DNA from: Candidatus Zhuqueibacterota bacterium
GTDB taxonomy: Bacteria > Zhuqueibacterota > Zhuqueibacteria > Residuimicrobiales > Krinioviventaceae
DNA length: 47,516 nt
Direction: 5' to 3'
Assembly: GCA_016929295.1 (NCBI GenBank)
Contig: JAFGJB010000365.1
Coordinates: 1-47,516 of the forward strand
Shown here: piece by piece, positions 30,048 through 35,492 of the stretch
Layout: every line of letters starts with the position of its first letter
Position numbering within the stretch: position 1 is the first letter of the stretch
Notes under the pieces: generated by a model
Database searches by the model: none
What the model was told of the DNA's origin: nothing
What the model saw: the letters and a program-made list of their open reading frames with translations, nothing else
Translations under genes and position numbers: made by a program

Positions 30048-31541
30048 CTATTTCAACAACAGGCATTTTTGCGACCTGTTTTCATAGTGATAGAAAAATA
30101 TCCCAGAGCCGGCATCGCCGGCTTCCCACAGGACCGCATGTTCGCCGGCATCTTGATGCGCATTCACCAGCTCGGCTACACATTGTCCGGCACAGTTATA
30201 GACCTGGATGCTGACATAAGACGGTGATGCCACGCTATAGGTGATAGTTGTACTGGCGCTAAACGGATTCGGATGATTTTTCAGGCTAAATTCCGACGGC
30301 ACTTTTTCCTCCGGATTTTCGCCGCATTCAAGGATGTCCAATAGTTGATGCGCCGAGTCCAGTTTCATGGTGACGAAAAGCTCAAAGACTCTATCCAGGG
30401 TGTCGTTGATCTGGCTGTCGTTCGCATGCTGTCGCCGCAGAGTGTACAACCGCAGCGGCAGTTGCAGGTGCTTTGACTGCGGCTGAAAGGTCAAGTCGAT
30501 GGCGGAGCGAACATTTTGCACCCTCTCGAGATAGCGATAGCCAAACTCTTCAGTCGGTTCGATGATGGTGCCTTCGCCATAGTCGTTCCATGTCACGAGT
30601 TGAATGATATGCGGCGCGTCAGACAACGCCTGCTCCAGGGTCAATGCAAACGTCGCACCATTCCCCGCATCGAGGTAGCCGTATCCCGCACTTACGCCGG
30701 CTTCCCGATAAATATCATGAAAAGCCGGGAAGGCGCTCGATATACGATATGGCCATAGCGCGGATTTTGTTGAAAACTGATTGAGGTATTCCTGCAATGA
30801 TGCGTGCGTCAAGATGCCGTTGGATGATGTTTTCCACATGGGCGGCCAGGAGAATGCACCCGCGGCAGGAGCAAGCCGATTATCCAGCGTAAAGAACAGT
30901 GGCTGAACCGGTAATACGGAAAAGATGTTCTCCCACTCGGCGCTGCTTTTAAAATGCTGCGGCCCGAATGTCAGCAGCAGCGGCCGATTGTCAATTTTGA
31001 CATATTCTCTGGACTGGAACCAGGTCTTGTTCAGATAGGTCATGACCTCACGGGCGTGATCATACTTGTCTTCTTGCCGTAAAACGGTCTGGCTGATCAT
31101 GTGGGTGATGGTTTGATCCTCGTAAACGATAGCGAACAGCAGCTCCGCCTTGCGTATATATTCGAACACGGCGTGGGTACGATCATTAATGGCTGCATAG
31201 TCCCATAAATTACCTATCCCATACCAGTCAACTAAAATGCCGTCGATGCCGCTCACCTTCATCAACAGCACCTGGTATTCCATAATATCTTTGTCCATTG
31301 AATCGTAGGGACCGGTGAGCGGGTAATAGTGAGACGCTATCTCCCGGCGACCGTTCTCATTTGTGTTGTTCGGATTAAAATGATCCATGGTCCAGTGCCA
31401 ACCCCAGCCCGATTCGACGGGTGGCGCTGTGTACCACGGCATAAAATGGGCGAGTAGAAGCGGTCTGTCTCCTGAACTGTCCTTGGCCGCGACGGTCGAG
31501 AGCATCAGTGAGACCGCGAGAAAAAAAACAGCAGATTTCAT
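30048..31541 (-). CDS. Secreted GH71/GH99-like glycoside hydrolase with T9SS-type sorting domain
   Basis: The 497-residue protein has a signal peptide (about residues 1-19). The body resembles GH71/GH99 alpha-glycan hydrolases, with AHFMPWY near 31-37, DWYGIG near 105-110 and the acidic catalytic-region motif TWNDYGEGTIIEP near 317-329 (E323, E328). From about residue 424 to the end is a sorting domain. It begins HPNPFSASTTITYS and ends in a lysine- and leucine-rich tail, typical of type IX secretion C-terminal domains. The glycan target is unknown. The start overlaps the upstream protease gene by 4 bp, so they are translationally coupled. Confidence 0.85.
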   Translation of the reverse strand: MKSAVFFLAVSLMLSTVAAKDSSGDRPLLLAHFMPWYTAPPVESGWGWHWTMDHFNPNNTNENGRREIASHYYPLTGPYDSMDKDIMEYQVLLMKVSGIDGILVDWYGIGNLWDYAAINDRTHAVFEYIRKAELLFAIVYEDQTITHMISQTVLRQEDKYDHAREVMTYLNKTWFQSREYVKIDNRPLLLTFGPQHFKSSAEWENIFSVLPVQPLFFTLDNRLAPAAGAFSWPPMWKTSSNGILTHASLQEYLNQFSTKSALWPYRISSAFPAFHDIYREAGVSAGYGYLDAGNGATFALTLEQALSDAPHIIQLVTWNDYGEGTIIEPTEEFGYRYLERVQNVRSAIDLTFQPQSKHLQLPLRLYTLRRQHANDSQINDTLDRVFELFVTMKLDSAHQLLDILECGENPEEKVPSEFSLKNHPNPFSASTTITYSVASPSYVSIQVYNCAGQCVAELVNAHQDAGEHAVLWEAGDAGSGIFFYHYENRSQKCLLLK

Positions 31542-32452: not shown

Positions 32453-32490
32453 TGTTACGGGTAACAATGCTGTATTTTAACGTATATAGT
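32453..32490 (+). promoter_or_regulatory. Palindromic operator-like site and overlapping promoter candidate
   Basis: TGTTAC at 32453-32458 and GTAACA at 32461-32466 form a perfect 6-2-6 palindrome. GTAACA also matches four of six positions of a minus-35 box, with TATATA (32483-32488) 16 bp downstream. The site lies between divergent genes and would sit about 80 bp before the isoprenoid-like gene. A repressor binding here is a reasonable guess. Confidence 0.35.
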
Positions 32491-32545: not shown

Positions 32546-33796
32546 ATGGCACAACCTTTTTTTCTGCCCGTTGAAATATTTCGACAGACCCTGCTCTTTC
32601 ATCAAGTTGAAAAGCTTGTCGATGAATTCTCGTGGCGCTGGCACGACTGTTCTGCGGACGACTTGCCGTTAGTGAAAATCTATGCGCCGGCCGAGCAGCA
32701 AGAGAGAGAAGCCCATCTCGATCTATTCATGCAAACCCTGCAGGAAGAAAGAAAGCAGGAGGCTCGATTTGAAGATGTCGAGATGCAGGAACGGATTTTC
32801 GCGCATATCCGAGCTTTTTTTAAATACGCGCTCGGATTCCGACCGGCAGAGGTCGATTTGATTCTCGATCTGGGATTCAAGGAATCGACGAAAAAATTTC
32901 TTCATCTGGCGCGCCAATTTGACGCGGCAATGGCGCCGGCGGACATTTTTCAGGCCTGTCGAAATGTGTGGATCATGAATGGCCTGCAACTCATGTTGGG
33001 ACTCAAGGTGCGACTCACACCCGCCATATTCGCCTACAGCATGCTCTATCCCTACACAGATAATTATCTCGATAGCGCCGCCATCCCAAAAGAAGAGAAA
33101 ATTGCCTTTAACGATCGTTTTGCGCGACGGCTGGCGGGAGGGAACGTTGCGCCAACGAATGAACATGAACGGATCGTTTTTTCACTCATCGAAAAGATAG
33201 AAGGAGATTTTGACCGCTCACGTTTTCCGCTGGTGTTCGAGAGTCTCCTGGCCATTCATCAGGCGCAGACGAAGAGTGTTCTCCTGTTGGGCTCGGTCGA
33301 GTTGGCACAAAAAGATGTCCTGCGCATCAGTCTGGAAAAAGGCGGGACTTCTGTGCTGGCTGACGGTTATTTGGTCGCCGGAAGATTGACGGATGCACAA
33401 GCCGCTTTTCTGTTCGGTTATGGCGCCTATCTGCAATTCCTGGATGATCTTCAAGATGTCTATGAAGATGAGCGTAGCGGCCAACGTTCCATCTATACGC
33501 TGGCCGTGCAAACGACATCCCTGGATCTGATCACGACTCAAACCTTTGATTTTGGCGAACGCGTGCTGGCTTCTCAGCAAGGATTCACTGGCCGCGCCGT
33601 CAAAGGTTACACGGACTTGATGCGCACGAGCATTCAGCTCATGCTGCTCGAAGCTGTGGGATTTGCAGGAAAATATTTCACGCCGGGATTCATCAGTAAA
33701 ATTGAAAAATATTCACCTTTTCGTTTTTCTCATCTGAAGGCGCTGAAGGACCGACACGCGCCTTATTATATGTCGATGTTTGGCAGGTTAATCTGA
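32546..33796 (+). CDS. Putative class I isoprenoid biosynthesis enzyme, unassigned
   Basis: The frame opens at a TTG at 32516, but AAGGA at 32535-32539 fits the ATG at 32546, giving 416 residues. The protein is mostly helical, with two aspartate-rich motifs. The first is TDNYLD near residues 171-176. The second is FLDDLQDVYEDERSG near 299-313, in the helix order seen in all-alpha prenyltransferases and terpene cyclases. A SLEKGGTSVLADGYLV segment lies between them, where family members have a basic diphosphate-binding stretch. I infer a class I isoprenoid-synthase fold. The product is unknown, and homology to a named synthase is not claimed. The 3' end overlaps the opposing DUF4097 gene by 9 bp. 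Confidence 0.6.
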   Translation: MAQPFFLPVEIFRQTLLFHQVEKLVDEFSWRWHDCSADDLPLVKIYAPAEQQEREAHLDLFMQTLQEERKQEARFEDVEMQERIFAHIRAFFKYALGFRPAEVDLILDLGFKESTKKFLHLARQFDAAMAPADIFQACRNVWIMNGLQLMLGLKVRLTPAIFAYSMLYPYTDNYLDSAAIPKEEKIAFNDRFARRLAGGNVAPTNEHERIVFSLIEKIEGDFDRSRFPLVFESLLAIHQAQTKSVLLLGSVELAQKDVLRISLEKGGTSVLADGYLVAGRLTDAQAAFLFGYGAYLQFLDDLQDVYEDERSGQRSIYTLAVQTTSLDLITTQTFDFGERVLASQQGFTGRAVKGYTDLMRTSIQLMLLEAVGFAGKYFTPGFISKIEKYSPFRFSHLKALKDRHAPYYMSMFGRLI

Positions 33797-34678
33797 CTTG
33801 GTCAACTTCCTGATATAAATATTGCCGGTAAAATTGGTGAACTCTATATCCTGGCCGCCGCCGTTCAACGGTATTTCGGTCAGTTGCTCGAGGGTGGCTT
33901 CATAACCGTCATCTTTTTTATTCTCGGTTTTGCTTTTTGAAATCTTTCTTTTTGATGTATCAAAATCAGTATAGATGTCTCCATGCGACTTGAGTTTAAG
34001 ATTTGCCTTGACATGTGACGGCAATGCCACATCAATATCGCCGCCAAAGGTGCTGAAAGACATGGGCTTGTCGGTTGCGACATGGGCGATGGTCGCCTCT
34101 ATATTGCCCATGGTGTGTGCGACGATGGCGCCGCCAACATTGTGCATAGTAATGCCACCACCCAGTGCTTCAACCTCGATTTCGCCGTTGACATTCTCAA
34201 TTGTCACCCCGCCGGTCACGGTCTTGAGATGAAGTGAAGTCTGCCTGGGCACAATGAGCTCCAGCTCATTGCCGCTGGGATTCACAAAAGACATCGGCGG
34301 CATATTGATTTCAATGATATTGTCGCGCTCTTCCACGTTGATGCCAAAGCGCGATGATTGAATTTTTTGCAGGCCCTTTATCTTTTCGGCATCCGGCTTG
34401 CTTTTCCATTCGTCGCTGACATCTGGCGCAAGCGGTACGTCGAAATTCATCACCGGCACGGCCAATCGTTGTACGTTGGCATTTTCTTTTGAGAGTATGA
34501 TGACATCTCGTCCGGAATGCGTCTTCACTATGATGCTGCCGGCGATCATTTCAGCTTTGACCGTGCCTGACTGCGACGGATTGCTGAAAGCCACGACGAG
34601 GCTGTCGACGTTTTCCGCGTGCCCGACGATGATGAAGAGCAGCAGTGCAGCGAAAATTTTAATAGTGCATTCTCTCAT
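33788..34678 (-). CDS. DUF4097-type adhesin-like secreted protein
   Basis: From the ATG at 34678 (with AAGGAG upstream) the product is 296 residues with an N-terminal signal peptide. The frame extends further upstream inside the anti-sigma gene, but that part is noncoding in this frame. The body is a repetitive parallel-beta pattern (VTIENVNGEIEVEAL, ITMHNVGGAIVAHTMG, SFSTFGGDIDVALP, HGDIYTDFD), as in DUF4097/auto-adhesin proteins. It overlaps the anti-sigma gene by 20 bp and is likely part of the same sigma regulon. Function is unknown. Confidence 0.8.
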   Translation of the reverse strand: MRECTIKIFAALLLFIIVGHAENVDSLVVAFSNPSQSGTVKAEMIAGSIIVKTHSGRDVIILSKENANVQRLAVPVMNFDVPLAPDVSDEWKSKPDAEKIKGLQKIQSSRFGINVEERDNIIEINMPPMSFVNPSGNELELIVPRQTSLHLKTVTGGVTIENVNGEIEVEALGGGITMHNVGGAIVAHTMGNIEATIAHVATDKPMSFSTFGGDIDVALPSHVKANLKLKSHGDIYTDFDTSKRKISKSKTENKKDDGYEATLEQLTEIPLNGGGQDIEFTNFTGNIYIRKLTKSD

Positions 34679-35492
34679 TTTGATTCTCCTTAATAATTGT
34701 ATCTCCCCTGAGCGTGCCAATGGTCCACTTGATGTGCTGGCGAACGGCACGATGAATGTTTTCGTTCTGTTCGAGTGCACCCAGCAGCTCTGCCGGACGG
34801 GTTTCTGTCTGACGAATGAAATCGACAATTTCAACCTGAACGAGCGGCGATTTCTGTTGTGAAAAGGAATCGATGACGTGCCGTCGCAGGCGCACATCGG
34901 TGGCAAAAGGTCGTAACGCGCGCAGGGCGGCCAGGCGCACATTGGTGCTCGGATCTGTTTCGAGCGTACGCTGCAGCGCTTCGCGAACGTCGTCTCGCGG
35001 TCCTACCAGGGAGCTGTAACTGACCGCTTGCAGCCGGTCCGCCGATGACGGCTGCTTGAGCATGGAAAACATGACCTCTTGTCGCATATCGTCAAGCTCA
35101 TCCGCTAGCCGGGCAACGCGAGCGTGAGTCGATGCGGACGTGACCGTGACGCCAAGGACGAAGCCGATGACCAGCAGAGCGACGGCAAAGCCGAGTCGTA
35201 AAGCCGGTTTGGCTGCGAGACTTTTCCATGCGGGCAGTGCGCCCGGGTGGCGCGCCTCGCGCGCTCCGTGCTGATAGCCGGCTAACATGGCGTTGAATTT
35301 TTCCGTCAGCTTTTCGCTCGGTTTTTCTTCAGGCATCTCATCCAATCGGCGCCACACTCGCTCAAACGATTCGAATGCCATGCGGCAGGCATCGCAGCTG
35401 TCGATATGGCTCTGAATCTCTCGCTTTGTCGAATTTTCCAGTTCGCCGGCGAAATAGGGGACGATCTGCCTCATTATTTGATCATGCGACAT
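34659..35492 (-). CDS. Membrane anti-sigma factor with zinc-finger and HEAT-like sensor domain
   Basis: The 277-residue protein has an N-terminal zf-HC2 zinc anti-sigma domain (H29-x3-C33-x2-C36), a cytosolic linker and a single membrane helix (about 98-120). A periplasmic part follows. Residues about 140-260 look like alpha-helical HEAT/PBS-lyase-type repeats (DPSTNVRLAALRALRPF, SPLVQVEIVDFIRQ). The start overlaps the sigma gene by 11 bp, the classic sigma/anti-sigma pairing. The periplasmic repeats may sense envelope stress, which is an inference. Confidence 0.87.
   Translation of the reverse strand: MSHDQIMRQIVPYFAGELENSTKREIQSHIDSCDACRMAFESFERVWRRLDEMPEEKPSEKLTEKFNAMLAGYQHGAREARHPGALPAWKSLAAKPALRLGFAVALLVIGFVLGVTVTSASTHARVARLADELDDMRQEVMFSMLKQPSSADRLQAVSYSSLVGPRDDVREALQRTLETDPSTNVRLAALRALRPFATDVRLRRHVIDSFSQQKSPLVQVEIVDFIRQTETRPAELLGALEQNENIHRAVRQHIKWTIGTLRGDTIIKENQNERMHY

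Follow-up and report, generated by a model that had tools for sequence, protein, structure and literature searches.

A 416-residue class I isoprenoid synthase-like protein as the predicted founder of an unnamed bacterial family

Background

In prenyl synthases, the glutamine of the GQxxD region, the lysine of the KT motif, and the DDxxD motif succeed each other along the chain, and the GGKxxRP and DDxxD-RRG motifs of the chain-elongating synthases hold IPP. Fungal bifunctional terpene synthases, such as fusicoccadiene synthase, have the cyclase first and the prenyl synthase second. The class IB large-terpene synthases have the motifs DYLDNLxD and DY(F,L,W)IDxxED (PMC7839719).

The gene described here lies in the window, i.e., the whole analysed stretch of 47,516 nucleotides, and its features are collected in Table 1. 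Neither the protein nor the alignment of its homologs found a sequence relative in Pfam, NCBIfam, or PDB, which, for these libraries, bears out the remark of the first-pass annotation that the rest of the sequence matches none of the isoprenoid enzymes known to it. The literature, which was partially covered, yielded no description of the family or of the fusion proteins related to it.

Gene, distribution, and genomic context

The open reading frame is intact, starts with ATG, and is preceded at ~7 nt by a Shine-Dalgarno-like AAGGA. The copy in the sister genus (RQOI01000403.1, candidate division KSB1) has 74% amino acid identity to the product, with dN, dS, and dN/dS equal to 0.165, 1.04, and ~0.16, respectively, so the protein is under purifying selection.

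According to whole-genome searches, the family is present as a single copy in 13 of 82 KSB1-phylum genomes, 12 of which are among the 22 genomes from the source order, and 1 elsewhere in the class. One divergent copy (L032) belongs to a genome of another phylum, and plasmid records contain no relative. The copy in genome G007 (L003/L014, G007:C5:1154167-1155406) seems to carry two frameshifts, one close to the first Asp motif and the other at the C-terminus, which continues in another frame. Elsewhere in the source genome lie two genes for prenyl synthases and one for a squalene-type synthase (L018, a true PF00494 member). Three family-carrying genomes of the order (G003, G012, and G014, with G012 only 78% complete) yielded no squalene-type gene, so the family probably does not act at a post-squalene step. 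A separate locus of G007 (L036, G007:C5:2158849-2159616) has a squalene-type synthase and an acyltransferase-like stretch in one frame of 540 aa; this could reflect either a genuine fusion or an artefact of frameshifting, given that the G007 assembly shows other frameshifts.

The gene had been described as isolated, and it is: its upstream neighbour is a divergent CAAX-protease-type gene, and a convergent 384-aa reading frame (33788-34942, minus strand) with no Pfam match overlaps the 3' end by 9 bp. Relatives of the convergent frame adjoin the family gene or lie near it in G001 (L062) and in the class-level genome G052 (L070). Across the 13 genomes, only secretion-tail proteins and this unnamed convergent gene are kept as neighbours beyond the genus, and no tailoring or isoprenoid gene is conserved beside the family gene. 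Because the neighbours are not conserved, no pathway is readable from the context. The minus-strand gene at 30048-31541 encodes a secreted glycosyl hydrolase-like protein with WbsX/GH71/GH99 matches, and the C-terminus of this product is similar to those secretion-tail proteins, which other genomes repeatedly have close to the family gene.

As for the promoter-operator-like region proposed in the first-pass annotation, the candidate −35/−10 pair has similar elements in the sister genome. The perfect palindrome TGTTACGGGTAACA (32453-32466), which overlaps the candidate −35 element, is only half preserved, however, as the sister genome keeps the right arm but not the left.

Table 1. Positions of the gene, its candidate elements, and the related fusion protein
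Feature	Position	Strand	Basis
Class I isoprenoid synthase-like protein (predicted), 416 aa, founder of an unnamed family	32546..33796	+	Reading frame, homologs, predicted fold
Candidate promoter GTAACA-18-TATAGT	32461..32490	+	Similar elements 5' of the sister gene; count not above shuffles
N-terminal helical extension, ~residues 16-95, before the class I core; invariant W32	32591..32830	+	Model and alignment; the core by itself yields the same fold class
First Asp-rich motif TDNYLD, residues 171-176; family form DNxxDD	33056..33073	+	Conservation; end of model helix 159-176
Q241-x-x-S244, at the GQxxD-region position of prenyl-diphosphate synthases	33266..33277	+	Invariant; equivalence suggested by spacing
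K265-G266-G267, where the KT motif has its diphosphate-binding Lys	33338..33346	+	Invariant; equivalence suggested by its place after Q241 and before DDxxD
Second Asp-rich motif Q297-FL-DDLQDVYED, residues 297-308; Q..DD..D...D	33434..33469	+	Invariant D300/D301/D304/D308; hhalign register
Fusion protein L076/L078, ~794 aa	G132:C1, ~3268171-3270555		Relatives L079-L097

Conserved residues and motifs

A residue count along the intact frame confirms the previously reported length of 416 residues and the position of TDNYLD at 171-176. The second Asp-rich motif, FLDDLQDVYEDERSG, is also present, but it occupies residues 298-312 and not 299-313 as first reported. Among 13-14 homologs with 25-74% identity, D172, N173, D300, D301, D304, and D308 are invariant, and the same holds for W32, R139, N140, Q241, S244, K265, G266, G267, D273, and Q297 (13-14 sequences). 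D176 is kept in all of 14 sequences except the apparently frameshifted L003 row, and a motif scan finds the second motif as Q-x2-3-DDxxD in 14 of 14 members. At position 177 the window protein has Ser, whereas nearly all other members carry Asp. Judging by this conservation, the two Asp-rich motifs are not a product of chance, and a candidate metal site in the protein is well supported.

Q241, K265, and D300 follow one another along the chain. The distance from Q241 to K265 is 24 residues, which, counted by eye on the alignment, equals that between the Q of GQALD and the K of KTA in L016, the source genome's own prenyl synthase. This order and spacing, resembling those of a prenyl synthase, support a putative diphosphate site, with the GQ and KT equivalences being matters of spacing by eye and not of a structural residue map.

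Regarding the motifs of described enzymes, GGKxxRP occurs in 0 of 14 family members versus 10 of 15 same-order prenyl synthases, and DDxxD-RRG in 0 of 14 versus 15 of 15, the latter controls having been picked with the RRG motif. The absence of these IPP-binding motifs makes chain elongation unlikely. None of the 14 members has the NSE/DTE motif that marks canonical class I terpene synthases, and the two class IB motifs are likewise missing (0 of 14 each, versus 20 of 20 and 19 of 20 controls).

Profile comparisons

The family profile aligns to the prenyl synthases of the order with hhalign E-value 0.0066, a result that none of 60 column shuffles equals, and the DDxxD motifs are aligned. For the squalene-type synthases the E-value is 0.028, with 1 of 60 shuffles as high; squalene-type and prenyl synthases, both accepted members of the superfamily, score no better against each other (0.028). 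These alignments match the second motif, position by position, to the DDxxD of prenyl synthases and the DxxED of squalene synthases, and the family profile also finds an FPP-synthase-like protein, again at the second motif. The class IB profile gives an E-value of 0.31. Global hhalign alignments gave no meaningful result. PF00348 has no match in the window protein at E-value 10, nor in 13 members at E-value 1; L032 alone reaches it, below the cut-off (0.019). PF00494 matches neither the window protein nor 13 members.

Predicted fold

AlphaFold2, run on the family alignment, gives a confident all-alpha model with pLDDT 87.9 and pTM 0.89 for the whole protein (88.7 and 0.86, respectively, for the core alone, residues 96-408), in agreement with the earlier description of the protein as mostly helical. 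In the model, the first Asp motif lies at the end of helix 159-176 and the second at the end of helix 283-303, i.e., the two conserved motifs stand in order on separate predicted helices.

Structure prediction and fold search, which the first-pass annotation had proposed as a check, point to the class I all-alpha fold: for both the whole-protein and the core models, the 50 best PDB matches listed by Foldseek are all class I isoprenoid enzymes. The E-values are weak (~1e-3), but the probabilities reach 0.89-1.00 with the whole-protein model and 0.98-1.00 with that of the core. The matches include the prenyltransferase domain of fusicoccadiene synthase and, for both models, the carbazole prenyltransferase CqsB4. 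According to VIA-align, the whole protein superposes on a polyprenyl synthase with Z 16.1 (258 residues, 3.9 Å), and the best value for the core is 16.0 (257 residues, 4.0 Å); at rank 50 of the matches listed, all of them isoprenoid enzymes, Z is still 13.7-13.9. Since VIA-align rows within 1 Z count as tied, the fold class is supported but the subfamily is not. A class I isoprenoid synthase fold is well supported by prediction, and we regard the protein as a new family inside the known class I superfamily.

Fusion proteins in another order

Proteins of ~794 aa (L076/L078 and relatives) in another order, first reached via a weak genome hit, have an N-terminal half related to the family and a C-terminal polyprenyl synthetase half. 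The strongest sequence-level link of the family is to this fused N-terminal domain, with hhalign probability 96.5, E-value 8e-10, and score 79.9 over 234 columns, versus a shuffle maximum of 26.9. Together with the predicted fold, this link to a domain fused with a prenyl synthase supports the original likening of the protein to class I isoprenoid enzymes. The C-terminal half is a canonical prenyl synthase (profile E-value 1.5e-32; PF00348 9.9e-53). As for the N-terminal domain alone, no Pfam family scores above its cut-off; PF00348 gives 0.0016 at residues 283-382, below the curated cut-off. To our knowledge, this domain has no assigned function.

Of the 151 genomes sampled from that order, 72 have the domain at near full length; judging by genome type and a universal YtpB-type gene, the order lies within Bacilli and is probably Paenibacillales. 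The neighbourhoods of 14 fusion genes are uninformative, with an ABC transporter ATPase as the sole recurrent neighbour. The presence of a prenyl synthase in the same chain, as in the fungal enzymes, suggests that the fused domain consumes a prenyl diphosphate.

Proposed function and alternatives

The protein is very likely a class I enzyme that ionises a prenyl diphosphate, and the most economical interpretation is that it does so without elongating a chain. In the proposed mechanism, D172, N173, and D176 on one helix and D300, D301, D304, and D308 on another would hold Mg2+, and these ions together with K265 would bind the diphosphate of an allylic prenyl diphosphate, supplied by the cell's separate prenyl-diphosphate synthases or, in the relatives from the other order, by the fused second domain. 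Diphosphate loss would give a carbocation, most likely cyclised or quenched to a terpene inside the pocket, because the family lacks the elements with which chain-elongating synthases bind IPP. To this more specific reading, a terpene synthase-like enzyme, we assign a probability of roughly 0.55. It is weakened by the absence of NSE/DTE and of the class IB motifs, by a second motif of the prenyltransferase type (DDxxD), by the lack of a conserved tailoring or isoprenoid neighbour, and by Foldseek E-values of only ~1e-3. The product is probably a hitherto undescribed terpene or lipid, and the earlier suggestion that the protein may make a new lipid or terpene is plausible.

A serious rival, although one we hold to be rather unlikely, is a class I prenyltransferase that joins the prenyl cation to a non-IPP acceptor, such as a second prenyl diphosphate (head-to-head, in the manner of squalene/phytoene synthases), a sugar lipid (in the manner of MoeN5), an aromatic ring, or a peptide. 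The closest structural matches listed include MoeN5, CqsB4 is also among the fold matches, and the second motif, DDxxD plus D and not NSE, is in register with the squalene-synthase DxxED. In addition, the first motif of the squalene-type synthase encoded in the source genome, VDNIVD, is of the DN type. However, PF00494 is not matched, the squalene-synthase score is equalled by one of the shuffles, no acceptor-pathway gene is conserved nearby, and the fused relative's own prenyl synthase agrees no less well with a single diphosphate substrate. Elongation of chains with IPP by a divergent trans-prenyl-diphosphate synthase appears improbable: polyprenyl synthases are the top fold matches listed, Q, K, and DDxxD are ordered as in regions III-V of prenyl synthases, and the family profile reaches an FPP-synthase-like protein, but GGKxxRP and RRG are absent from all members, ordinary prenyl synthases are already carried by 22 of 22 genomes of the source order, and the fused relative has a canonical synthase for that activity.

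A catalytically silent or regulatory protein, comparable with the small subunits of heteromeric prenyl synthases, would fit a lone gene without pathway context and the S177 of the window copy; the strict conservation of all Asp residues and K265 makes it very improbable. Helical proteins often give middling Z values, and an unrelated helical bundle with chance Asp motifs might be suspected for that reason, yet this reading is already disfavoured and hardly credible, given that all 50 matches listed are isoprenoid enzymes with Z of at least 13.7 at rank 50 and that a homologous domain shares a chain with a prenyl synthase.

Returning to the terpene synthase-like reading, the window protein and the N-terminal halves of the fusions may, tentatively, constitute a new bacterial class of terpene synthases, with the fusions as bifunctional members in a fungal-like arrangement. 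Such a class would, with the same reservation, be marked by DNxxD/DDxxD as its first motif, KGG or KSS as its Lys motif, and DDxxD...D as its second. If active, the family would be an isoprenoid-making one that is invisible to genome mining based on Pfam and NCBIfam. It sits in a little-studied candidate phylum, with the fusion form in about half of the sampled genomes of the other order, and some of the fusion-bearing organisms can probably be cultured. The fusion opens the function to direct testing, since one gene might yield both the substrate and the product.

Comparison with known systems

Trans-prenyl-diphosphate synthases (PF00348) resemble the protein in predicted fold (Z 16) and in the Q-K-DDxxD order. 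In contrast to them, it has no PF00348 match, GGKxxRP, or RRG, the family has DN for DD in the first motif, and there are extra N-terminal helices. With squalene/phytoene synthases (PF00494) it shares the class I fold and a second motif in register with LQxTNILRDIxED; however, PF00494 is not matched and the profile score is barely above shuffles. The longest structural alignments (290-292 residues, Z 15.1-15.4, 4.3 Å) are with class IB large-terpene synthases (BalTS, YtpB, PF10776), whose two motifs are nevertheless absent from the family. MoeN5-type prenyltransferases are similar in predicted fold (Z 15.0, 247 residues, 3.7 Å), but identity in the structural alignment is ~9% and no moenomycin-type genes are seen near the gene.

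The fused N-terminal domain, in a half of ~500 aa, is homologous to the family and has the same motif order (YPF-DDLLD-S, K, Q-x2-DDFADMFDD), differing in being joined to a prenyl synthase and in having DD for DN and KS for KG. By analogy with the fungal enzymes, the ~794-aa fusions look like bacterial bifunctional terpene synthases.
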